A DNA stretch of 45,313 bases from Candidatus Desulfolinea nitratireducens (GTDB lineage: Bacteria > Chloroflexota > Anaerolineae > Anaerolineales > Villigracilaceae): contig JACNJN010000071.1 in assembly GCA_014382535.1 (NCBI GenBank), forward strand, positions 1-45,313, written 5' to 3'. Position 1 is the first letter of the stretch, and each line of letters opens with the position of its first letter. Positions 7,023 through 19,110 of the stretch are shown in pieces. The notes below the pieces were generated by a model. The model was not told the origin of the DNA. It worked only from the letters and a program-made list of their open reading frames with translations, and did not search any database. The translations under genes and the position numbers were made by a program.

Positions 7023-7424
7023 ATGACCGTATTAACGCTTGAACTACCGGCCATGTATGGTGACCATCATGTTGTCGAAGTTAAGCGCCTATTGATGGAT
7101 CTGGATGGTGTAGAAGAAGTATATGCCAGCAGTGGTTTCCGTGCTGCTGAAATTACCTATAACTCCAAGAAAGTCAAAAAGGCAGATATTACCTCTACAC
7201 TTGAGAAGGCCGGTTATATTGGTGAATTACCCATCCCCGTTGAGGCAGGAGAGCCATTATATGGCCGGAAGAATGGCGATTCGACTTATAGGCACACAGC
7301 TGCCCTTGGAGAAATGGCTACAGCCAATGAGGTCAGCTTTACGCAAGAAGTAAATTACGGCGGGCGCCCGTTATGGCCTTGCCCAGGTATGAAACCTGTT
7401 ACCGGTATGGATGAGGAAGGGTAA
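7023..7424 (+). CDS. HMA-like small protein of the CODH operon
   Basis: This 133-residue protein heads the CODH/ACS operon, behind a strong GAGGAGGAG ribosome-binding site and 10 bp before cooS. Residues 1-68 follow the beta-alpha-beta-beta-alpha-beta pattern of heavy-metal-associated (HMA) domains, with GVEEVYAS and LEKAGYIG in the usual places. The metal-binding CxxC loop is replaced by MYGDHHVVEV, which offers His but no Cys. The remaining 65 residues are not recognised and contain a single Cys (RPLWPCPGM). Context suggests a role in metal delivery to, or assembly of, the Ni-Fe clusters. That role is inference, and I do not recognise the full-length family. Confidence 0.65.
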   Translation: MTVLTLELPAMYGDHHVVEVKRLLMDLDGVEEVYASSGFRAAEITYNSKKVKKADITSTLEKAGYIGELPIPVEAGEPLYGRKNGDSTYRHTAALGEMATANEVSFTQEVNYGGRPLWPCPGMKPVTGMDEEG

Positions 7425-7434
7425 GGAGAGAATT

Positions 7435-9450
7435 ATGGCTAAAAAACAACGAACACCCCAGGAAAAAAGTATAGATCCCGCAGCCCAAAAAATGCTCATT
7501 CGGGCCGATGAACTAGGTCTCGAAACAGCATTTTCTCGCGCAGATAATATGGCTCCCTGCAATATTGGTGCGGCTGGTCTGTGCTGCAAATTATGTGGTA
7601 TGGGACCCTGCCGAGTAACCAAAGATGGTCAGACCGGGGTTTGTGGTGCAACCATGGATACTATCCAGGCCAGAAATCTGGGTCGATCGATTGCTGCCGG
7701 AGCATCGGCCCATTCAGATCATGGTCGTGATATGGCCTTCACCCTAAAGGCAGTTGCCAATGATGAAACCGAAGGATTTGTTATCCGGGATGTTGCCAAG
7801 CTGCGGAATGTAGCTGCTACTTACGATATTCCCATTGAAGGTCGCTCACCAAAAGAGATCGCCAATGAGTTGGCAGATTTGTTCATCGCTCAATTCGGTT
7901 CGCAAGTCGGGCCAATTGTGCCGCTTAAACGCGCTTCACAGAAACGCCAAAAGATATGGGCAGATCGAAAAGTACAGCCCCGCGGTATTGATCGTGAAGT
8001 AGTGGATATGCTCCACCGCACTCATATGGGCGACGATCAGGATTACGAACATATCATGGAGCAAGCTGTACGCACCGCTCTGGCTGATGGTTGGGGTGGC
8101 AGCATGATCGGCACCGATGTTTCAGATATTTTGTTTGGCACGCCGGCACCCGTCCATGGTCAGGCCAATCTGGGTGTCTTGAAAACAGATATGGTCAACG
8201 TAGTTGTCCATGGGCACGAGCCGACCCTTAGTCAGATGATCGCTGCAGCAACCCAGGACCCAGAGATCATTGCATATGCTAAAGCTGCCGGAGCAAAAGG
8301 TGTCAACCTTGCCGGTATTTGCTGCACAGCCAATGAAATCCTTGTCCGACAGGGCGTACCGGTTGCGGGCAACTTCCTGCATCAGGAACTCTCCATCCTC
8401 ACCGGTGCTGTCGAAGCCATGGTGGTAGATGTGCAGTGCATTATGCAAGCGTTGGTTAACCTTGCTGAAAATTTCCATACAAAGATCATTACTACCTCAT
8501 CTAAAGTAAAGATCAAAGGTGCTACACATATGGAATTTGATGAGCGTCATGCCATGACCATAGCTAAAGATATTCTAAAAACAGCCATTGATAATTTCAA
8601 GGAACGTGGTGCAACTCACATTCCTGATGATAAACAGGATCTGATCCCTGGTTTCTCTCACGAATATATCAACTATATGCTGGGTGGATCCTACCGCGCA
8701 TCCTTCCGCCCGCTTAATGATGGGATCATCTCCGGACGTATCCGTGGTGTAGCGGCTATTGTTGGTTGTAATAACCCTCGTAGTCAGCAGGATTATTTGC
8801 TTACCCATGTAGCTGAAGAATTGCTAAAACAAGATGTCCTGGTAGTTGAAACTGGCTGTGGTGCAATTGCTGCGGCTAAGAAAGGTCTCCTGTTAGGTGA
8901 AGCTGGCCTTGACAAGGTTGGTCCGGGCCTGCGTGAAATTTGCGAGGCTGTCGGTATTCCGCCAGTATTGCATATGGGGTCATGTGTTGATAACTCCCGC
9001 ATCCTGACCGTGCTTACTCAAATGGTTGAGGAAGGTGGACTCGGCGATGATATCGACCAGGTTCCCGCCGTTGGTTTGGCCCCTGAGTGGATGTCTGAAA
9101 AGGCACTTGCCATCGCCACGTACTGTGTGGCCTCGGGTGCTTACGTGATCTTTGGTGGTTCTTCCCCGGTAGGGGGAATGCCAGACAGAATAGATGAAAG
9201 CGATATTGTTTTGAACTACCTCAGCAAAGGATGGGAAGAAGCCTACGGTGGAAAACTGGAGTTCATCCCCGATCCCGATGAAATGGTTCGCGCCACATTG
9301 GCACATATCGATAAAAAACGAGCCGATTTGGGCCTGCCAGAATATGATCCAACTCGTTTTGGAAAGAGCGGCGATACCCGCATGTTAGAACTTGAGAAAC
9401 TTCCTCTTTCGGAACGCCGAGAATCAATCTACGGCGTTGCAGCGGACTAG
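7435..9450 (+). CDS. cooS: Carbon monoxide dehydrogenase catalytic subunit
   Basis: This 671-residue Ni-Fe CO dehydrogenase (AcsA/CooS) interconverts CO2 and CO and supplies CO to acetyl-CoA synthase. All expected cluster ligands are visible. Cys42 and Cys50 fit the D-cluster; Cys51, Cys54, Cys59 and Cys70 fit the B-cluster. The C-cluster set is in HGHEP (His261), GICCTANE (Cys296/297), DVQC (Cys335), VGCNN (Cys445), ETGCGA (Cys475) and MGSCVDN (Cys517). The start is ATG 7435, after AAGGAGAG; an upstream in-frame codon at 7411 overlaps the previous gene and lacks a ribosome-binding site. The next gene, acetyl-CoA synthase, starts 13 bases after the stop, as expected for a CODH/ACS complex. 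Confidence 0.97.
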   Translation: MAKKQRTPQEKSIDPAAQKMLIRADELGLETAFSRADNMAPCNIGAAGLCCKLCGMGPCRVTKDGQTGVCGATMDTIQARNLGRSIAAGASAHSDHGRDMAFTLKAVANDETEGFVIRDVAKLRNVAATYDIPIEGRSPKEIANELADLFIAQFGSQVGPIVPLKRASQKRQKIWADRKVQPRGIDREVVDMLHRTHMGDDQDYEHIMEQAVRTALADGWGGSMIGTDVSDILFGTPAPVHGQANLGVLKTDMVNVVVHGHEPTLSQMIAAATQDPEIIAYAKAAGAKGVNLAGICCTANEILVRQGVPVAGNFLHQELSILTGAVEAMVVDVQCIMQALVNLAENFHTKIITTSSKVKIKGATHMEFDERHAMTIAKDILKTAIDNFKERGATHIPDDKQDLIPGFSHEYINYMLGGSYRASFRPLNDGIISGRIRGVAAIVGCNNPRSQQDYLLTHVAEELLKQDVLVVETGCGAIAAAKKGLLLGEAGLDKVGPGLREICEAVGIPPVLHMGSCVDNSRILTVLTQMVEEGGLGDDIDQVPAVGLAPEWMSEKALAIATYCVASGAYVIFGGSSPVGGMPDRIDESDIVLNYLSKGWEEAYGGKLEFIPDPDEMVRATLAHIDKKRADLGLPEYDPTRFGKSGDTRMLELEKLPLSERRESIYGVAAD

Positions 9451-9463
9451 GAGAAGATAAAAA

Positions 9464-12400
9464 ATGTCAAAATATATTGCAACTCGCGCCATTCGTGGTG
9501 CTAACGCACTGGTTATAGAAGCAGAAACAATGCTTCAGAGGGCGCTATCAGAAAAAGGTCCCGACACCATAGTCGAATTCCCAAATACGGCTTATTTTTT
9601 ACCGACCATTTTTGCAATGACCGCCATGGAAATAGAGACGCTTGGCCAGCTCGGAGAAGCACTGAATCACGCTCGTTCACTCCTGCATCCCGTACCCGCC
9701 GAAAATCACTGGACGCCATATTTGGGAGAAACCCTGGATAGTGGTATGGCTACCCTCCTGGCCGCCGAAGTGATCGAGGCCATTCGCTTTGTTTACGGAT
9801 TACAACCCGAACCTTTCCCCGGAATTGAACTGACCGGTGGCACCGCCTATCCTCAGCTTGATAACGGCGGCGGGCCGGCCGGACATCTGAACGGACCGAT
9901 TGATGATATTCAATTGCGCTCCTGGGGTATCCAGTTGGTAGACGGTCGTATGCCCGGTTTTGCGGCTATAGTTGGTGCGGCAAAAAACAATGAAACAGCC
10001 GTCAAAATTGTCCGTGAGCTACAGCAGAGAAATATTTTGGTCTTCCTCTCTGGCAACGTCAATGGTCGCAGTATCATTCACCAACTTCAGGAAGAGGGTG
10101 TTGAACTCGGCTACGATACCTATACGATCCCCTTTGGGACTGATACGATCAGTGCGATTTACGCGCTGGGTTTTGCCGCTCGTTCGGCACTAACTTTCGG
10201 CGGAATTGATGCAGGCCAGGCACGCGATATTCTCCTCTACAACAAGAAACGCGTTTTTGCCTTTGTGCTGGCTTTGGGCGAGGTTGACGATCTAAAATAC
10301 GCGGCAGCGGCAGGGGCGATCAACTTTGGTTTCCCGGTCATCGCTGATACTGTAATTCCCGAAATTTTGCCAACAGGCGTAACTGATTACGAGCATGTGA
10401 TCTCAATGCCCTTTGACGAAATCGAAGGCGCAGATGATCTGGAACGCGCCGAACGTTTGGTGCAGAAATGCATCGAAATACGCGGCGTCAAGATCAAGAT
10501 GACCGAAGTTCCGGTTCCGATCCCTTATGGCTCGGCATTCGAGGGAGAGGTCGTCCGTAAAGCTGATATGCGCGTCGAGTTTGGTGGAAAATACTCGCGC
10601 TGCTTTGAGTATCTGCAAATGCGTGATATGGATGAAATTACCGATGGCGTGATCGAGATCGTTGGTCCCAACTTTGACGATGTCAAGGATCAAGGATCGA
10701 TGGACCTCGGTATTGTCGTCGAAGTGGCTGGACGTAAACTGCAGGAAGATTTTGAACCTGTTCTTGAACGCCAGATTCACTACTTTGTAAATGGTGGTTC
10801 GGGGCTGCAGCATATTGGACAGCGTGATATCACCTGGATCCGTATTTCCCGAGAAGCTACCGAAAAAGGATTTACACTGGAACATATTGGCACAATTCTA
10901 TATGCTCGTTTGCATGCAGAATTTGGTGCCATTGTTGATAAGGTCAAGGTCACTTTGTACACCGAGCCAGATCAGGTGACCGAGTGGATGGAAAAAGCCC
11001 GCGAAGCTTATGACTATCGTAATAAGCGCCTGGCAGATCTGACCGATACGGCCGTGGATGAATTCTATTCCTGCACCCTCTGTCAATCCTTTGCTCCTAA
11101 CCATGTTTGTATCGTCAGCCCTGAGCGCCTCGGACTTTGTGGAGCTTATAACTGGCTGGACTGCAAGGCCTCCTTTAGCATCAATCCCACTGGCCCCAAC
11201 CAGCCGATTCCGCTTGGCAAACTCCTTGACCAAGAAATTGGTTACTGGTCAGGAACGCTCGATTACGCCAAAGTCGGTTCTCATGGTGTTGTTCAGGACA
11301 TTTCCATGTATTCCATCATGGAAAACCCGATGACGGCCTGTGGCTGTTTCGAATGCATTGTCATGTATGTCCCTGAGGTGGAGGGTGTCTTCATTGTCAG
11401 CCGAGAAGATACTGGTATGACCCCCATCGGAATGAAATTCTCCAGTTTGGCGGGCATGGCTGGTGGCGGTATGCAAACCCCGGGCGTGATGGGCATCGGT
11501 AAATTCTATTTGATCAGCCCCAAATTCATCTCAGCTGATGGTGGTTTCAAACGCGTCGTCTGGATGAGCGCCAACCTCAAAGAAAGTATGCAAACCGAAT
11601 TCCAGGGTGTGGCAGACCGGGAAGGCATTCCTGATCTGATTGACCGGATCGCTGACAGCAATTCAGTTACGACAGTTGAGCAATTGGTCGAATGGGTGAA
11701 AGAGAAAGACCACCCCGTGTTGGATCTGGGCCCCATGGTTGCTACATCCGCTAAAGTTGATGGGGCCGATGATGTTATCGCCCAGGCAGAAGCGGTAGTG
11801 GATGCTGTATCTGCTCCCAAGGTAGAAGCACCGAAAGCTGAGGCTGCGAAACCAGCTCCTGTTGAAGTTGCTCAGGTTAAAGAAGCACCTCCTGCCCATG
11901 CAACACCTCCCGCTCCCCCCTCCGCCCCCGCGGTATCCGGTTCGATGGAAGAGCGTGTTGATCGTCTGGAGCGTTCCGTCAAAACCCTGATCGGTTCTCT
12001 GGTCGGGGCATTGGCAGAACTTGGTGATGTGGACGTCCCGCAGATCCCGGCTGCTCCAAAAGTGTTTGCTCCTGTTGAAGCAGCACCTGCCCCAGCAGCC
12101 AAACCTGAAATAACACTTGCTCCTGATAAACCCTGGCTTGCCGAGGGTACCAAAACGGAGATTCTCAAAGAAAATTGGCCTGGCTCTGTCCGCGAAGTCA
12201 AGCTTGGCGCCACTGCCGCTGATGGTGGTACTCGTACCAGTGTGATTACAGTTGGCGGTCAAAATGCAATGCCCTTCATGGATTTTGAAGGTGCGATGCC
12301 CAATAAACCTGTGATTGCCCTTGAGATCAAAGATCGTCGCCCTGACGACTGGTCAGAATTACTGCTCAAGGAATGGGGCGATGCAATGAACGACCCCGGA

Positions 12401-13108
12401 ACCTGGGCTAAAGCCGCAGAGAAAGCTGGCGCAGATCTGCTTCAGATGACTCTCTCGGTGACCGATGCCGATGGTAACCCAACCAAACCGGATGCAGCCG
12501 TTGCAGCAGTTCGCAAAGTGCTTGAAGCATCCGGATTGCCCCTGATGGTATTTGGCCCCGGACAGGTTGATATTGACAATGAATTGATGGTGCCGATTGC
12601 CGATGCTTTCAAGGGTGAGAGATTGCTTCTGGGCCTCTGCGAAGATAAAAATTACCGCACCATTGTAGCCTCTGCGATGGCCAATGGTCATCTGGTCAAT
12701 GCGCGCACTGCCATGGATGTCAACCTGGCGAAACAGCTCAATATTTTGATCAATGATATGGGCCTTCCCTTGGAACGCATCATCATGGATCCGACCACAG
12801 GCGCGTTGGGATATGGATTTGAATATGGCTATTCTGTCATGGAGCGTTTGCGTATGGCTGCCCTGCAGGGCGATAGCATGACCCAAATGCCGATGCTCGT
12901 TACCCCCGGCGAAGAGTGCTGGAAAACAAAAGAGGCAAAAGTCGGTGTGGATGTCCCCGAATCCTGGGGCGACTGGCTTGAGCGCTCCATTACCTGGGAA
13001 ACATTGACCTCGGTCATGCTGCTCGAAGCAGGCGCAGATATTCTTACCCTGCGACACCCTGAAAGCCTGCGGCGCACACGCGCAGCTATTGAAGATTTGG
13101 CAGGATAA
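9464..13108 (+). CDS. Acetyl-CoA synthase fused to corrinoid protein small subunit (AcsB-AcsD)
   Basis: This 1214-residue protein joins two Wood-Ljungdahl enzymes normally made separately. Residues 1 to about 755 are a full bacterial acetyl-CoA synthase, which condenses CO, a methyl group and CoA. The A-cluster ligands are all present: Cys537, Cys540, Cys549 and Cys559 (SCTLC ... CIV ... LCGA), then Cys626 and Cys628 (ACGCFEC). Residues about 760-826 and 861-885 are Ala/Pro/Glu-rich flexible linkers around a predicted coiled coil (SMEERVDRLERSVKTLIGSL, from about 827). Residues about 886-1214 match the small (delta, AcsD/CdhD) subunit of the corrinoid iron-sulfur protein, a TIM barrel with IIMDPTTGALGYGFEYGYS. 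No stop or frameshift breaks the join, and no separate acsD exists in the window. The linker could swing the methyl donor toward the A-cluster. AcsC, its partner subunit, is the next gene. Confidence 0.93.
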   Translation: MSKYIATRAIRGANALVIEAETMLQRALSEKGPDTIVEFPNTAYFLPTIFAMTAMEIETLGQLGEALNHARSLLHPVPAENHWTPYLGETLDSGMATLLAAEVIEAIRFVYGLQPEPFPGIELTGGTAYPQLDNGGGPAGHLNGPIDDIQLRSWGIQLVDGRMPGFAAIVGAAKNNETAVKIVRELQQRNILVFLSGNVNGRSIIHQLQEEGVELGYDTYTIPFGTDTISAIYALGFAARSALTFGGIDAGQARDILLYNKKRVFAFVLALGEVDDLKYAAAAGAINFGFPVIADTVIPEILPTGVTDYEHVISMPFDEIEGADDLERAERLVQKCIEIRGVKIKMTEVPVPIPYGSAFEGEVVRKADMRVEFGGKYSRCFEYLQMRDMDEITDGVIEIVGPNFDDVKDQGSMDLGIVVEVAGRKLQEDFEPVLERQIHYFVNGGSGLQHIGQRDITWIRISREATEKGFTLEHIGTILYARLHAEFGAIVDKVKVTLYTEPDQVTEWMEKAREAYDYRNKRLADLTDTAVDEFYSCTLCQSFAPNHVCIVSPERLGLCGAYNWLDCKASFSINPTGPNQPIPLGKLLDQEIGYWSGTLDYAKVGSHGVVQDISMYSIMENPMTACGCFECIVMYVPEVEGVFIVSREDTGMTPIGMKFSSLAGMAGGGMQTPGVMGIGKFYLISPKFISADGGFKRVVWMSANLKESMQTEFQGVADREGIPDLIDRIADSNSVTTVEQLVEWVKEKDHPVLDLGPMVATSAKVDGADDVIAQAEAVVDAVSAPKVEAPKAEAAKPAPVEVAQVKEAPPAHATPPAPPSAPAVSGSMEERVDRLERSVKTLIGSLVGALAELGDVDVPQIPAAPKVFAPVEAAPAPAAKPEITLAPDKPWLAEGTKTEILKENWPGSVREVKLGATAADGGTRTSVITVGGQNAMPFMDFEGAMPNKPVIALEIKDRRPDDWSELLLKEWGDAMNDPGTWAKAAEKAGADLLQMTLSVTDADGNPTKPDAAVAAVRKVLEASGLPLMVFGPGQVDIDNELMVPIADAFKGERLLLGLCEDKNYRTIVASAMANGHLVNARTAMDVNLAKQLNILINDMGLPLERIIMDPTTGALGYGFEYGYSVMERLRMAALQGDSMTQMPMLVTPGEECWKTKEAKVGVDVPESWGDWLERSITWETLTSVMLLEAGADILTLRHPESLRRTRAAIEDLAG

Positions 13109-13127: not shown

Positions 13128-13181
13128 AAACACTAAGGACACCAAGAAGCACGAAGAAAAACCTTTGTGACCTTTGTGTTT
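13128..13181. repeat. Imperfect palindromic repeat between acsBD and acsC
   Basis: AAACACTAAGGACACCAAGA (13128-13147) faces CCTTTGTGACCTTTGTGTTT (13162-13181), an inverted repeat matching at about 15 of 20 positions. The form (ACTAAGGACACCAAG ... CTTTGTGACCTTTGTG) resembles a dispersed intergenic repeat, and it reaches to about 10 bases before the acsC ribosome-binding site. Confidence 0.6.
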
Positions 13182-13199
13182 AAAAAAACGGAGATAAAA

Positions 13200-14531
13200 A
13201 TGGCACTATCAGGTATTGAAATCTATAAAATGCTTCCGAAGACCAATTGCAAGGATTGTGATTTTCCAACCTGCCTGGCCTTTGCGATGAAGCTGGCAGC
13301 AAAGCAGGTGGAATTATCCTTATGTCCACATGTAAGTGAAGAATCAACGGCCTTGCTTTCAGAAGCTGCTGCACCTCCCGTGCGACCCTTCGCGCTCAAA
13401 TCGAATGGCTATGAAGCCAAAGCCGGCAGTGAAGTGGTCCTGTTTCGCCACGAAAAAACCTTTTACAGCCGCCCGGGGCTTTTCCTGCGCGTTTATGATT
13501 CACAAAGCGCTGAGGAGATCAAAGCCAAAGTTTCTCCGGCAGATGCATATATGGTCGATTATGTCGGCATCGAGCTTGAGATGGGTGGATTTGTCATCCA
13601 GGCTGATGGCGGCGATTTTGGAAAGGCTGTCAGCACGGTGCGTGAGATTAGTCAGCGCCCATTGATACTCATCGGCGAAGCAGACCAACTCAAAGCAGGC
13701 CTGGCCGCGATTAGTGGTGACGAGAAAGTCATGTTGGGACACGCTACAGCTGATAACTGGGAGGCGATGGCGGCCCTGGCAAAAGAGTATGATACCGCAC
13801 TGGCTATTGAAGCTGATTCTGTTGATGCAATGGTGGATTTATCCGAGAAAGTGCAGGGAGCTGGCGTCAAGGATCTTGTGCTTTCGCCCACCCAACGTGG
13901 CTTCCGCGGTACACTGACAGCCAATACAGTATCCCGGCGTATGGCCCTCAAGAAAAATTTCCGGGCGCTGGGTTACCCGATCATCAGTTTCCCCGGAGAT
14001 GTTGGGGATGCCTCGACTGAGGCTACTCTGGCCGCGCAAGCCATTGGAAAATATAGCGGTTTCATCGTGATGGATAATTTCTCCCCGGAAACAGCCTACG
14101 CCCTTTTGGTATTGCGCGAGAATATTTATACAGACCCACAAAAACCGATCCAGGTCCAGCCAGGCATATACGAAATAAACGGTCCTGGTCCCGATTCACC
14201 TGTCCTTGTGACCACTAATTTCAGTATTACCTATTTCAGTGTTGCCAATGAAGTCGAAAGCTCCGGAAATCCTTCCTGGCTGTTGGTAACCGAAGCCGAG
14301 GGTATGAGTGTACTGACTGCCTGGGCAGCCGGCAAATTTGATGCAGAGGTGATTGCCAAAGACGTCAAACGGTTTGAAGTTGCCGATAAAGTCACCACGA
14401 AGAATATTGTCCTCCCCGGCCATACAGCAGTGCTCTCTGGCGAACTAGAAGAGGAACTCCCTGATTGGAACGTGCTCGTTGGACCGCGCGAAGCTGTTGA
14501 TATCCCGGCCTATTTGAAATCTTTGGTCTAA
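13200..14531 (+). CDS. acsC: Corrinoid iron-sulfur protein large subunit
   Basis: This is the 443-residue gamma subunit (AcsC/CdhE) of the corrinoid Fe-S protein, which carries the methyl group from methyl-THF to acetyl-CoA synthase on a cobamide. The N-terminal [4Fe-4S] motif is Cys17-x2-Cys20-x4-Cys25-x16-Cys42 (TNCKDCDFPTC ... SLCPHV). A TIM barrel and a C-terminal cobamide-binding domain follow; the length is normal for the family. The start is ATG 13200, with GGAG seven bases upstream and with MALSGIEIYKMLPKTNC matching the usual N terminus. An in-frame start at 13167 would translate the upstream palindromic repeat and is rejected. Its small-subunit partner is the C-terminal domain of the preceding fusion protein. 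Confidence 0.95.
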   Translation: MALSGIEIYKMLPKTNCKDCDFPTCLAFAMKLAAKQVELSLCPHVSEESTALLSEAAAPPVRPFALKSNGYEAKAGSEVVLFRHEKTFYSRPGLFLRVYDSQSAEEIKAKVSPADAYMVDYVGIELEMGGFVIQADGGDFGKAVSTVREISQRPLILIGEADQLKAGLAAISGDEKVMLGHATADNWEAMAALAKEYDTALAIEADSVDAMVDLSEKVQGAGVKDLVLSPTQRGFRGTLTANTVSRRMALKKNFRALGYPIISFPGDVGDASTEATLAAQAIGKYSGFIVMDNFSPETAYALLVLRENIYTDPQKPIQVQPGIYEINGPGPDSPVLVTTNFSITYFSVANEVESSGNPSWLLVTEAEGMSVLTAWAAGKFDAEVIAKDVKRFEVADKVTTKNIVLPGHTAVLSGELEEELPDWNVLVGPREAVDIPAYLKSLV

Positions 14532-14607: not shown

Positions 14608-16536
14608 ATGGCTGAACACATTGTAAAATTCGATATTTCATCTGAGCCTGTCACAGTTCCCACAGGGACGCTGGTCTCCGAAGCCGCTGATAAAGCTGGC
14701 ATTGAGATCAATCAGCCTTGCGGAGGGCAGGGCCGTTGTGGGCGTTGTGCCGTCATCGTTACCGAAGGCGATTCGAGTATTCGTCGTCGCAGCACCTTGC
14801 GTTTATCCTCTGAAGATGTGGCAGCTGGCTATGCTTTGGCCTGTCAGTCAGTCATTGAAGGGGATACCGAGATCACCATACCCCCTCAGGAAAAAATCCA
14901 GCGTCGGTTGACCACCGATCGAACTGTAGGCAAAGTGGTGATCCCTGCTGGTTACGATCCTCAACTGAGTCAAAGTATTCGCCGCGTCAAGCTCACCTTG
15001 CCGCCTCCCAGTATGGATGACCAGACTGACGATTGGAGCCGTTTACAGACAGCTTTGCGTAAACAGGCCGGCGTGACACAGCTACAAGCCTCTTTGGAAT
15101 TAATCCGAAATATCGGCGCAACTCTTCGGGAAATGGATTGGCAGGTTACGGCAACGCTCAATGCGAAAACCTGGGATTGCCCCGATTGCCCGGCTCAATT
15201 GCTGGCTTTGCTACCCGGGCATATAGAAGATGATACGCCGCTTTGGGGGGTAGCGATCGATATTGGCACGACCACAGTCTCGGTTTGGATGGTTGACTTG
15301 CTCACAGGAGAAGTAAAGGCACAGGTTGCTGAATATAATCAACAAATTTCGCGTGGTGAGGATGTGATCTCCCGCATCATTGTCGCTGGCAAGGAGGGTG
15401 GCAGTGAAAAAATGCGTGACCTGGTTGTGGATACGATCAATAATTTGCTGGTTCAAGCGTGCAAGAGATTGAAAGCCAGCCCTGATGAAATTGTCAAGGC
15501 AACCATTGCTGGCAATAGCACGATGATGCATCTTTTACTGGGGATTCCTGCAGCAAGCATTCGTCTATCACCATTTGTGACTGCAATCAATCAAATCCCC
15601 ACCCTGGATGCGACCGACGTTGGATTAGCAATTCACCCCCAGGCTATTGTTGATTGCCTGCCGGGTGTTGCCAGCTATGTGGGTGCAGATATCAGCGCTG
15701 GTGTGCTTTCCTCGGGAATGATCGATTCGGAAGAGATGATCCTCTTTCTGGATGTTGGCACCAATGGTGAGATCGTTCTCGGATCGAAGGATTGGCTCGT
15801 AACCTGCGCCTGTTCAGCGGGTCCCGCTTTTGAAGGTTCCGGTGTTTTAGACGGGATGCGCGCAACCAAGGGCGCCATCGAGGAAGTTTGGGTTAACGAT
15901 CAAACGCATGAGCCGACCTACAGGGTAATTGGCGGTAGCAAGCCTAAAGGTTTGTGCGGCAGCGGTTTGATCTCCCTCCTGGCCGAGATGTTCCTAACTG
16001 GCGTGGTTGATAAGGGAGGCAAAGTTAACACAAAACTATCAACCCCACGCACACGAGAAGGTGAACATGGCGGAGAGTATGTTGTCGCCTGGGCCGCTAA
16101 ATCCAGTACTGGTAAAGATATTGTCATTACCAATGTTGATATCGATAACCTTCTGCGAGCCAAGGCCGCCATCTACGCTGGTTTTGCTGTCCTGGCTGAA
16201 AATGTTGGGGTAACCCTGGATATGGCCGAACAGGTTTTGGTGGGTGGATCATTTGGAAAATATATCAATGTCGAAAAGGCCATTGAAATTGGATTGCTGC
16301 CTGATCTGCCCTGGGAGAAATTCCAGTTCTTGGGAAATACCTCCGTGCAAGGCTCTTATCTGGCGTTGATTGACGATCAGGTACGCAACCGAATTACAGA
16401 GATTGCTACTAAAATGACTTATATTGAATTATCTGCCGATAATAAATTCTATGATGCATTTATGTCGGCGCTCTTCTTGCCGCATACAGATATGACTTTG
16501 TTCCCATCTGTGGCAAAAATGATGGAAGAAAAATAA
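14608..16536 (+). CDS. acsV: Corrinoid protein reductive activator (RACo/AcsV-like)
   Basis: This 642-residue protein is the ATP-dependent activator that reduces inactive Co(II) corrinoid protein back to Co(I). An N-terminal plant-type [2Fe-2S] ferredoxin domain has Cys38, Cys44, Cys47 and Cys79 (QPCGGQGRCGRC ... LACQ). A linker domain follows, then an ASKHA-type ATPase (DUF4445) from about residue 215 with AIDIGTTTVSVWMVDL, FLDVGTNGEI and VLVGGSFGKYINVEKAIEIG. The length and domain order match the RACo family. It lies between acsC and acsE, its functional partners. The ATG at 14608 has no clear ribosome-binding site, unlike its neighbours, so translation may depend on the upstream hairpin or be weaker. 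Confidence 0.93.
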   Translation: MAEHIVKFDISSEPVTVPTGTLVSEAADKAGIEINQPCGGQGRCGRCAVIVTEGDSSIRRRSTLRLSSEDVAAGYALACQSVIEGDTEITIPPQEKIQRRLTTDRTVGKVVIPAGYDPQLSQSIRRVKLTLPPPSMDDQTDDWSRLQTALRKQAGVTQLQASLELIRNIGATLREMDWQVTATLNAKTWDCPDCPAQLLALLPGHIEDDTPLWGVAIDIGTTTVSVWMVDLLTGEVKAQVAEYNQQISRGEDVISRIIVAGKEGGSEKMRDLVVDTINNLLVQACKRLKASPDEIVKATIAGNSTMMHLLLGIPAASIRLSPFVTAINQIPTLDATDVGLAIHPQAIVDCLPGVASYVGADISAGVLSSGMIDSEEMILFLDVGTNGEIVLGSKDWLVTCACSAGPAFEGSGVLDGMRATKGAIEEVWVNDQTHEPTYRVIGGSKPKGLCGSGLISLLAEMFLTGVVDKGGKVNTKLSTPRTREGEHGGEYVVAWAAKSSTGKDIVITNVDIDNLLRAKAAIYAGFAVLAENVGVTLDMAEQVLVGGSFGKYINVEKAIEIGLLPDLPWEKFQFLGNTSVQGSYLALIDDQVRNRITEIATKMTYIELSADNKFYDAFMSALFLPHTDMTLFPSVAKMMEEK

Positions 16537-16581: not shown

Positions 16582-17505
16582 ATGTATATCATTGGAGAGA
16601 ATATCCACATCATTTCCCCCGCAGTCAAAGAGGCATTAATAAATCGGGACGGTGAATATTTTAAAACAGCAGCCATCAAGCAGGTTGAGGCCGGCGCGCA
16701 ATGCGTTGACTTGAATCTCGGCCCTCGCAAGAAAGACTGGGAGGAAGTTTTTCCCTGGATGGTGAAGACAGTTGAAGAGGTGGTTGATGTTCCTTTATGC
16801 ATTGATACCACCAATGTCAACGGGATGGAAGCTGCCCTGAAGACTGTTACCAAGGCCCAGCCTATCCTGAATTCCACCTCAGCCGAAGCAGAGCGTCTGG
16901 AAAAAGTGCCGGAACTGGCGAAGAAATACAATGCGAAACTGATCGCTTTGACAATGGAAAAAAGTGGAATTCCGGTTGCCTCAGATGATCGGGTTAATAT
17001 TGCCCTTGAAAAACTGATCCCTCGCTGCCTGGAATTGGATTTCCCTATTGAAGACCTGATCATTGATCCCTTGGTTTTGACCGTTTCAGGTTGCCAGGAA
17101 TTTTGCCCTGAATTGATCGAGGCCGTTCGTACGATCCAATTTGCCTGGGATCCGCCCCCTGCGATCTCGATTGGGCTTTCCAACGTTTCCAATGCTGTTC
17201 CAACTGCCAATCGACCGCTGATCAACAGCGTTTACTGTGCAATGGTCATGGGAGCCGGTCTCCAAATGATGATCGCAAATCCGCTGGAGACAGAACTTAT
17301 GGATGTGATCCGCATCGTTGAAAACCGCGATGAGAGCACCTCGCTAAATAAACTTTATCTCAAGATCCACGATCATGTTGCAGCCATGGAAGCGCCCACT
17401 CCTGATGGTGTTGATATGAGCGATCCCAAGCAGGCTGCTGTCTGGAAGACTGTTCAAATTCTTCTTAACAAGGTTATTTACGCAGATTCTTATTTGGAAC
17501 AATAA
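16582..17505 (+). CDS. acsE: Methyl-THF:corrinoid protein methyltransferase
   Basis: This 307-residue pterin-binding TIM barrel transfers the methyl group from 5-methyltetrahydrofolate to the corrinoid iron-sulfur protein. The family signatures are YIIGENIHIISPAVKEAL, QCVDLNLGPRKKDWEE, CIDTTNVNGMEAAL, LNSTSAE, DPLVLTVSG and SIGLSNVSNAVP. It is about 45 residues longer than the Moorella enzyme, the extra being mainly a C-terminal tail (EAPTPDGVDMSDPKQAAVWK and on). AAAGGAG precedes the ATG. It sits between the reductive activator and the methylene-THF reductase, the step that makes its substrate. Confidence 0.95.
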   Translation: MYIIGENIHIISPAVKEALINRDGEYFKTAAIKQVEAGAQCVDLNLGPRKKDWEEVFPWMVKTVEEVVDVPLCIDTTNVNGMEAALKTVTKAQPILNSTSAEAERLEKVPELAKKYNAKLIALTMEKSGIPVASDDRVNIALEKLIPRCLELDFPIEDLIIDPLVLTVSGCQEFCPELIEAVRTIQFAWDPPPAISIGLSNVSNAVPTANRPLINSVYCAMVMGAGLQMMIANPLETELMDVIRIVENRDESTSLNKLYLKIHDHVAAMEAPTPDGVDMSDPKQAAVWKTVQILLNKVIYADSYLEQ

Positions 17506-17613: not shown

Positions 17614-19110
17614 ATGCCCATCTTTACCCCTGGACGTCGCTGGCAGCCCCCGTACCTGCCATTCAAAAAGGAACCACTTAATCGAAGGTTGCTCGCATCC
17701 CTTGAAAAAGCCATCAAGGGTCCACTTTTTGGCTGTCGCATGTGCGGTAACTGTCTTTTGCAGGAAACGGCTTTCATTTGCCCAATGGAATGCCCTAAAG
17801 GCGCCCGTAACGGCCCCTGTGGTGGTTCGACTGAAGAGTTTTGCTATGTAGATAATACCCGTCCCTGCATGTGGTACAAGATCTATGAGCGTTCCTTTAA
17901 GATGGGGCGCGAAGAAATGCTGCTGGAAGTGCTGCCCCCCCTGGATTGGGAAAAAACCGGCACTGAGACCTGGGGCGATGTAACCAGACAGGTAAAGAAA
18001 GTGGGCACGGGGAGGGTAGTCAAAGGGATGCTTTCCAAAGATGCGGCTACTCGCACCGTGACCTGGGATTCAGTTTTTCGCCCCGTTCGCCAGCCGGATT
18101 GGTGGGAAGGTGATGCAAAATATCATCCTCCAGCTTATGATGAACCGATGTCAGAATTGGAACGTCGCTTACGAGCCGGAGAATTTGTAGTCACCTCAGA
18201 AGTAGCCCCCCCCGTGAGCGCGGCCACTGGCAAGCTTGTTAGAAATACTCAGATGATCAGTCCTTACGTGGCGGCAGTCAACTTTACAGATTGCCCTTCG
18301 GCAACGCCACGCATGTCGAGTATAGCGTGCAGCAAATTGGCGCTCGAGAACGGGGCTGAACCGGTCTTGCAGATTGCTGCCCGTGATCGTACACGCACTG
18401 GATTACAGGCTGAAATAATTGGGGCGAGCGCTCTTGGTATTCGAAATGTGCTCTGCCTCTCTGGTGATAGCTCTCAGATGGGTCCCTCTCCCTTGGGACG
18501 TTCGGATATTATCGATGTCGATTCGGTCCAGATGCTCTGGATCCTGCGTCGTATGCGCGACGAGGGCAAATATCTTGATGGGCGCGAGATTAAATTCCCT
18601 CCGCAATTGTTCCTCGGGGCCGCGGCCGCTCCCTTCGCATCAGAGCCCAAATTCCAGGCAATTCGTGAGCATAAAAAGATCAATGCAGGGGCACAATTCT
18701 TCCAGACCAATCTGGTTTACGATCCCGATGGGATGGAAATTTGGCTCAATGAGTTAGCCAAGCGCGATATTCTTGACAAGGTTTATTTGCTGATCGGAAT
18801 CACTCCGCTGAAAACCCTAAAGATGGCACAATATATGCACTATGACGTGCCCGGCGTCTTTATTCCAGAGAAGCTGCTCAAACGCATGGAAGCTGCTGGA
18901 CCTGATGGTGAAGCCGAAGTCGGTTTTGAGATCGCATTGGAATTGATCGAGTCCATTCGCAATAAGGAAGGCGTCAATGGCATCCACGTGATGGCTGTGG
19001 GTTGGGAAGATATTGTCCCGCGCCTCGTCACTGAAGCAGGCTTGCTACCGCCAGATTTTGTGGCTCCCGAACCTAAAGCTGATCCCGCCAAGGTAAAGGC
19101 TGTCGCATAA
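17614..19110 (+). CDS. MetV-MetF fusion, methylene-THF reductase
   Basis: This 498-residue protein appears to join the two subunits of the acetogenic methylenetetrahydrofolate reductase. Residues about 35-150 form the MetV-like cysteine-rich domain (annotated in databases as the MTHFR C-terminal domain) with Cys41, 44, 47, 56, 60, 69, 77 and 85, likely binding Fe-S clusters or zinc. Residues about 185-480 form the MetF TIM barrel, with the catalytic Glu in VTSEVAPP and the NVLCLSGDSSQMG region. The product, methyl-THF, feeds AcsE, encoded just upstream. A CTTAGG-like region (TTAGGAG) precedes the ATG. The electron donor is not known from the sequence; no HdrA/MvhD partners are present here. 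Confidence 0.9.
   Translation: MPIFTPGRRWQPPYLPFKKEPLNRRLLASLEKAIKGPLFGCRMCGNCLLQETAFICPMECPKGARNGPCGGSTEEFCYVDNTRPCMWYKIYERSFKMGREEMLLEVLPPLDWEKTGTETWGDVTRQVKKVGTGRVVKGMLSKDAATRTVTWDSVFRPVRQPDWWEGDAKYHPPAYDEPMSELERRLRAGEFVVTSEVAPPVSAATGKLVRNTQMISPYVAAVNFTDCPSATPRMSSIACSKLALENGAEPVLQIAARDRTRTGLQAEIIGASALGIRNVLCLSGDSSQMGPSPLGRSDIIDVDSVQMLWILRRMRDEGKYLDGREIKFPPQLFLGAAAAPFASEPKFQAIREHKKINAGAQFFQTNLVYDPDGMEIWLNELAKRDILDKVYLLIGITPLKTLKMAQYMHYDVPGVFIPEKLLKRMEAAGPDGEAEVGFEIALELIESIRNKEGVNGIHVMAVGWEDIVPRLVTEAGLLPPDFVAPEPKADPAKVKAVA

Follow-up and report, generated by a model that had tools for sequence, protein, structure and literature searches.

The window analysed here, a 45,313-nucleotide stretch of Candidatus Desulfolinea nitratireducens (contig JACNJN010000071.1, class Anaerolineae, phylum Chloroflexota), carries a gene, acsB~acsD, in which the acetyl-CoA synthase (ACS) AcsB and the small subunit of the corrinoid iron-sulfur protein (CoFeSP), AcsD, are encoded as one predicted polypeptide with a long linker between them. 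This covalent union is well supported by the gene sequence and recurs in relatives. The parts of the gene are as follows, with model confidence given as the predicted local distance difference test (pLDDT):

9464 to 13108, + strand: acsB~acsD fusion gene, 1214 amino acids (aa), a single open ATG frame with no internal stop
9464 to 11737, + strand: AcsB part, residues 1-758, domains A1, A2 and A3 (NF040764, Pfam and PDB matches)
11072 to 11140, + strand: A-cluster cysteines C537, C540, C549 and C559 (read in translation; invariant in the alignment of relatives)
11339 to 11347, + strand: Cys626-Gly-Cys628 (read in translation; invariant in the same alignment)
11738 to 12154, + strand: linker, residues 759-897 (139 residues), two Ala/Pro-rich arms flanking a helix, mostly pLDDT <50
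11759 to 11812, + strand: linker motif 1, residues 766-783, short helix DDVIAQAEAVVDAV, a feature of clade I of the trees below (pattern and model)
11945 to 12019, + strand: linker motif 2, residues 828-852, central amphipathic helix found in both main clades (profiles, identity and models)
12155 to 13102, + strand: AcsD barrel, residues 898-1213 (NF003376, PDB 4djd_D and model)

The initial annotation had described one uninterrupted frame holding a complete ACS with six A-cluster cysteines and a complete AcsD barrel, and our analysis bore this out. The ATG is preceded by AGGAG at 9449-9453, and the Pfam order along the chain is CODH_A_N, CdhC, ACS_CODH_B_C and CdhD, the first three corresponding to A1, A2 and A3. 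NF040764 (ACS alpha/beta) matched residues 10-758 with 951.7 bits (cut-off, 800), and solved ACS chains of the PDB aligned with residues 10-759. C537, C540, C549 and C559 are presumably the ligands of the A-cluster [4Fe-4S] center, as known from ACS structures, and Cys626-Gly-Cys628 presumably the nickel motif; all six cysteines are unchanged in the window and 13 fused relatives. By family, domain, and cysteine criteria, the AcsB part is a complete ACS, for which catalysis is predicted.

The AcsD part matched NF003376 (CODH/ACS delta) over residues 898-1213 with 364.1 bits (cut-off, 280), and five other delta models fell below their cut-offs (NF003377, 334.9 of 527; NF003375, 262.8 of 488; NF040759, 239.9 of 430; TIGR00381, 208.2 of 252.9; NF003378, 181.6 of 634). 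PDB 4djd_D aligned by sequence to residues 899-1212. The AlphaFold2 model of the window protein (residues 15-1214; mean pLDDT, 74.7; predicted template modelling score, 0.42) contains a well-formed AcsD barrel of alternating strands and helices, mostly with pLDDT >80; the underlying alignment combined 22 fused relatives with every second split row (37 of 73 for AcsB and 37 of 73 for AcsD), intein loci being excluded. The genome, 97.88% complete and hence possibly short of a piece, showed a single ACS, and the search for a second acsD, whose discovery would have spoken against the initial annotation, returned only AcsC, AcsE, and two matches at ~28 bits as further members of the CdhD family. 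The AcsD part is fused and is the only acsD found. By reading, the linker has no in-frame start codon with an AGGAG-like site directly before it.

Proteins with both domains had been suggested as a target for searches in Chloroflexota, and they were found repeatedly. We classed 147 loci as 34 fused, 90 split, 20 with acsB and no recognised acsD (several of these at a contig end), and 3 without the acsB end. The 34 fused loci, including four genes fetched twice, all belong to the window's class or to records named Anaerolineae or Chloroflexota. Among 60 relatives, ACS occurred in three of nine genomes of the window's genus, all three fused, and two genomes of another family of the same order (G042 and G055) were also fused; in the window's own family, fourteen genomes assigned to other genera showed frames of ordinary length (756-815 aa); the ACS gene of G020 is spread over two contig pieces. 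The class was sampled with 395 genomes; 154 had an ACS match, and at least 19 of these were fused; six more at contig ends pass the AcsB end into similar sequence (G420, G072, G221, G106, G258, and G375). In a phylum sample of 400 genomes with 50 matches, the 37 outside the class were all <=812 aa, none being fused by frame length. A scan of named genomes (best 80 of 581 relatives) returned Anaerolineae, related Chloroflexota names, or plain Chloroflexi, apart from two bacterial records without a lineage in the title (L142 and L151) and records named Actinomycetota (L146), Armatimonadetes (L179), and Chromatiales (L180), all five split. In most relatives acsB and acsD are separate, often with a CBS-domain gene nearby. 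A 1012-aa frame of G058 was rejected as a fusion, since there the AcsB frame is extended upstream and acsD is separate (L046).

This recurrence bears directly on the possibility that an assembly or base-calling error removed a stop codon, which the initial annotation had named as what would undo its claim. Many genomes contributed fused loci, and those bearing names are metagenome-assembled genomes with different titles. A codon-position signal also runs throughout the linker, in which substitutions favor the third position, most strongly in the helix (90/28/352 at positions 1/2/3). We therefore give next to no credence to such an error, which is already refuted for the family, and regard the frame as genuine.

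Two further observations concern the ACS genes of relatives. First, eleven loci (L062 to L072, class relatives) carry in-frame intein inserts exactly at two A-cluster cysteines. One site precedes the first Cys of Cys-Gly-Cys (window C626, 11339; NPMTA/CLTAD...VKN/CGCFEC), with both junctions read in eight loci and a single junction in L064 and L065; the other precedes the second [4Fe-4S] Cys (window C540, 11081; FYSCTL/CVPP...VKN/CQSF) in L069, L070, and L071. Pfam Intein_splicing matched five of five inserts tested (three above cut-off) and LAGLIDADG_3 three; no mention of "intein" was found among the papers listed (20 of 484). Four of the at least 19 fused class-sample genomes bear inteins, and in one of these (G413, L066) the AcsD part is broken and continues in another frame, either a real break or an assembly error. 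Second, L077 (G405), L078 (G400), and L079 (G247) hold a divergent second type of ACS, with frames of 618-712 aa that align to the reference only from residue ~142-146, in a stretch without cooS or acsC relatives; in L077 a CooC-like gene adjoins it.

Trees of AcsB, AcsD, and both parts were computed with FastTree from 102 rows (loci nearly complete in both parts, 10 repeats removed, the incomplete fused L054, L066, L107, and L114 omitted) and, for both parts together, with IQ-TREE from 72 rows (all 26 fused rows and 46 of the 76 split rows, picked to be near and well spread). The fused AcsB+AcsD sequences are not monophyletic. They fall in clade I (17, including the window), clade II (8), and L069. 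Support for clade I was 0.995 with both parts, 0.927 with AcsD, and 0.28 with AcsB, in whose tree L069 joins it; clade II lies near the split loci L158, L161, and L178, with L052 standing apart in the AcsB and joint trees. The fused/split label changes four times on the 72-row tree, at least two of these changes being forced by well-supported branches. An approximately unbiased (AU) test on AcsB+AcsD (LG+G4 without mixture, quick search) rejected a single clade of all 26 fused rows (p-AU 2.3e-5; log-likelihood difference, 179) and did not reject clade II plus L052 as a clade (p 0.46). Moreover, the window's genus groups with the fused genes of the other family and not with the split genes of its own; this grouping across families suggests horizontal transfer of the fusion gene.

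Around the junction the sharing of residues looks different. In a column-sharing scan that excluded L052 and L069, clade II has 10 informative columns in common with clade I and none with its split sister over columns 721-780 (the AcsB end and the first 20 AcsD columns), against 13 versus 40 over columns 1-720 and 9 versus 11 over columns 781-1079. A tree of columns 651-860 (~110 last AcsB and ~100 first AcsD columns) separates the 26 fused rows from the split ones, at a support of only 46; by region, AcsB 651-745 alone needs three changes, AcsB 1-640 four, and AcsD after column 870 two. Recombination of a junction cassette would produce such a pattern, and so would similar constraint on residues in corresponding positions. 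It is conceivable, and in our view doubtful, that linker, helix, and a few dozen codons on each side form a cassette that arose once and spread among Anaerolineae by recombination into resident pairs of acsB and acsD, replacing any CBS gene found there, with a helix that would dock the tethered methyl donor on the carbon monoxide dehydrogenase (CODH)/ACS or join units into a larger assembly.

The linker of the initial annotation, Ala/Pro-rich with a central coiled coil, was upheld in its composition; the coiled coil gave way to a single amphipathic helix at about residues 828-852 plus the short helix at 766-783. The 26 complete linkers measure 126-275 residues (~124 in the incomplete L107) and are rich in Ala, Pro, Glu, and Val. 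Over the window and six close fused relatives, identity is 0.89 in AcsB, 0.83 in AcsD, and 0.84 in the helix (828-856), compared with 0.71 in motif 1 and 0.46 and 0.43 in the arms. Among these close relatives the helix is thus as conserved as the enzyme domains, its changes being mostly synonymous, and the arms drift fast. In the AlphaFold2 model the linker forms two helices, 768-783 (pLDDT about 42-46) and 828-852 (52-61), the remainder being mostly <50; in a clade II model (L051, 8 sequences; mean pLDDT, 60.1) it forms one long helix (46-57). No Pfam domain matched residues 760-897 at E 0.001, and neither a lipoyl nor a subunit-binding domain was seen there.

The central helix links the two clades. 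Two patterns were composed after reading the linkers, so that their counts are descriptive: the helix pattern occurs in 24 of 26 linkers and in 20 of 26,000 shuffles, and motif 1 in 15 of 17 clade I linkers, none of eight in clade II, and not in L069. A helix model built from clade I gave all eight clade II linkers scores above all 500 shuffles of each, and above all of the 25,748 background segments (from loci not classed as fused) except L061, which is a fusion truncated by a contig end. With the reverse model, built from clade II, 11 of 17 clade I linkers exceeded all 500 shuffles and 10 of 17 the background apart from L061. An additional Gln/Ala helix-like stretch, AALRQAQALQQAAAEALRQAELL or near it, precedes the central helix in the linkers of L053 to L059 (family f47).

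It might be supposed that the chain is cut within the Ala/Pro linker, so that the usual separate subunits do the work and the fusion only sets equal synthesis. Long low-confidence arms would be easy protease targets, and an equal supply of AcsB and AcsD would be useful; however, the conserved element of the linker is a helix, and no cleavage-like site conserved in the arms is evident by eye. We consider this reading quite improbable.

The region between acsB and acsD in split loci offers a further comparison. Of the 90 split loci, 62 (51 of 76 without repeats) encode a CBS-domain protein of ~165 aa (PF00571), which may regulate the complex by sensing a ligand; its gene lies between acsB and acsD in those inspected (e.g., L093:10940-11539); in L036 and L094 a ferritin-like gene (PF00210 in L094) stands beside it. 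Within the available stretch, which is short in some cases, 33 of 34 fused loci have no CBS gene, the exception being L069, where it follows the fusion. G270 has two CBS copies after its fusion, and G060 (match, 1.7e-14) is split, as judged by its 775-aa frame. Relocation of the CBS gene elsewhere in fused genomes was rejected (best matches of 8e-5 in G000 and 8.7e-10 in G055; none in G004, G008, and G042), and so was a linker derived from a CBS gene remnant, since the helix model has no counterpart in the background segments of non-fused loci except L061.

The other 28 split loci have no CBS gene, and in 21 of them the acsB-acsD gap is <250 nucleotides; in those inspected, AcsB has a C-terminal tail such as TMDPIF or SMPPIF. 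Such close neighborhood in many relatives would favor a fusion of little kinetic role, in which adjacent acsB and acsD ran together harmlessly and the helix serves folding or assembly, e.g., the bundling of CODH/ACS units. The fast-drifting arms and the coexistence of split and fused forms inside one family point the same way. Nevertheless, fused forms occur in separate clades, the linker has at least 126 residues in all 26 complete cases, and the helix is conserved at the level of the enzyme domains in close relatives, which makes this explanation unlikely in our judgment.

The genes surrounding the fusion encode its likely partners:

7411 to 9450, + strand: cooS/acsA, CODH, partner (TIGR01702, 593.8 bits; cut-off, 478)
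13167 to 14531, + strand: acsC, CoFeSP large (corrinoid, Fe-S) subunit, predicted partner of the fused AcsD (NF003195, 496.3 bits; cut-off, 306)
14608 to 16536, + strand: acsV/RACo-like corrinoid reactivase (RACo Pfam domains; NF040756, 654 bits, below the cut-off of 800)
16582 to 17505, + strand: acsE-like methyl-tetrahydrofolate (H4folate):CoFeSP methyltransferase (Pterin_bind above cut-off; PRK07535, 224 below 259; CODH_ACS_meth, 203.7 below 370)
17614 to 19110, + strand: MetV-MetF-like methylene-H4folate reductase fusion (DUF5981 and MTHFR)

The order is cooS, fusion, acsC, reactivase, methyltransferase, MetV-MetF-like gene, a DUF3786 protein, and two MinD/CooC-like ATPases, and formate-H4folate ligase is encoded elsewhere in the genome. 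AcsV and AcsE are putative assignments, with NCBIfam matches under cut-off and Pfam support. A small protein encoded at 7023-7424 has no CxxC motif, and its HMA-like Pfam match scores 21.4 bits, short of the 24.8 required; its gene lies directly before cooS here and in most annotated loci.

We propose that the fusion is probably a natural ACS-AcsD tether, a swinging arm that would hold methyl-CoFeSP at its ACS and whose helix would serve for docking or assembly. The tethered AcsD would bind AcsC as in ordinary CoFeSP, and the corrinoid methyl carrier would thereby stay attached to its own ACS. On the Ala/Pro-rich arms CoFeSP could swing to reach AcsE and AcsV as well as the A-cluster, as ACS shifts on CODH from the position for CO loading to that for accepting methyl and back; the central helix would provide the docking or assembly point, and methyl delivery may become faster or more certain through the tether. 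As the initial annotation had it, a 1:1 stoichiometry and a donor kept near the A-cluster would follow from the architecture.

The length of the linker suits such movements. According to the excerpted text of PMC12289521, an AlphaFold3 model of the separate ACS-CoFeSP complex has A1 in contact with the CoFeSP beta subunit and A3 with the corrinoid domain, so that a tether joining A3 with AcsD would be expected to have considerable length; according to the same text, ACS also has to reach the CO-loading position on CODH. The fusion connects the A3 end with the beginning of the small subunit, so a linker both long and pliable would be expected for movement of this kind. A random-coil estimate for 135 residues, disregarding domain volume and helix docking, gives 6.4-9.8 nm and an effective concentration of 0.6-2 mM.

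Several points weigh against the tether as proposed. In the reverse helix test, the window's subgroup of seven failed to beat the background (ranks: L042, 23; WIN, 96; L103, 97; L045, 98; L043, 106; L102, 1711; L044, 1833), and hence its link to clade II rests on intermediates. For L069 the fit of the linker to the helix model is weak, 2 of 500 shuffles scoring at least as high. Shuffles destroy helical periodicity and thereby overstate helix similarity, the background scan being the fairer control. The pLDDT of the helix is low in both models; moreover, parts of A1 and A2 are also modelled below 50, so that a low linker pLDDT alone is no proof of disorder. The same operon exists with separate subunits in many relatives, and the fusion protein itself is predicted from its gene.

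Beside the known systems, the parts are familiar. Moorella, Carboxydothermus, and Clostridium autoethanogenum have CODH/ACS with separate subunits. Bacterial systems with separate CoFeSP share the ACS domains, the A-cluster cysteines, the AcsD and AcsC families, and the operon partners. However, in the solved bacterial structures ACS (708-734 aa) and AcsD (309-323 aa) are separate chains, and here they make one chain with a 139-residue linker. In the 2-oxoacid dehydrogenase E2 chains, flexible arms rich in Ala and Pro and a small helical element for docking lie between the working domains; the likeness is one of plan only, the fusion linker having no lipoyl or subunit-binding domain match.

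The methanogen ACS (CdhC) resembles the fusion in having a C-terminal extension after A3, of ~75 residues, unresolved and probably flexible, which was proposed to aid the swing of ACS between CODH and CFeSP (excerpts of PMC11474084), but it lacks A1 and is not joined to CdhD. No relation between the linker start and this extension was detected with a single sequence and a small profile, which found no PDB chain; a profile of the A3 end plus linker extends to position 109 on 9c0s_E, which may be mere extension of the A3 match. MetV-MetF, fused in several organisms (excerpts of PMC3315566) and also in the window, likewise unites neighboring subunits of the pathway in one chain, but at another step and with no long linker described in those excerpts.

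The initial annotation knew of no characterised example, and this agrees with our searches: no AcsB-AcsD fusion was described among the matches listed from Creative Commons-licensed full text in PubMed Central (PMC; subscription papers and preprints lie outside that scope), or in the excerpts of PMC11650866, PMC3584212, PMC3315566, PMC7117926, PMC4320612, and PMC13056359. The covalent union with a helix-bearing linker is thus undescribed as far as we found.

A very old route of carbon fixation has its joining step in the passage of the methyl group from CoFeSP to ACS, whose complex is hard to capture. As of 2024, according to excerpts of PMC11474084, no organism had yielded a view of the ACS-CFeSP interaction; a later complex from C. 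autoethanogenum is cited in those of PMC12289521, where methyl cobinamide was substituted for CH3-CoFeSP because micrographs were overcrowded at the concentrations at which the complex forms. With a natural 1:1 tether, a construct would be at hand for structural work and for determining how far the rate depends on encounter, and the conserved linker helix of the fusion predicts a docking site. If the junction did spread among Anaerolineae as a cassette whose helix docks the tethered donor or joins several units, these bacteria would have an E2-like multienzyme plan for carbon fixation.

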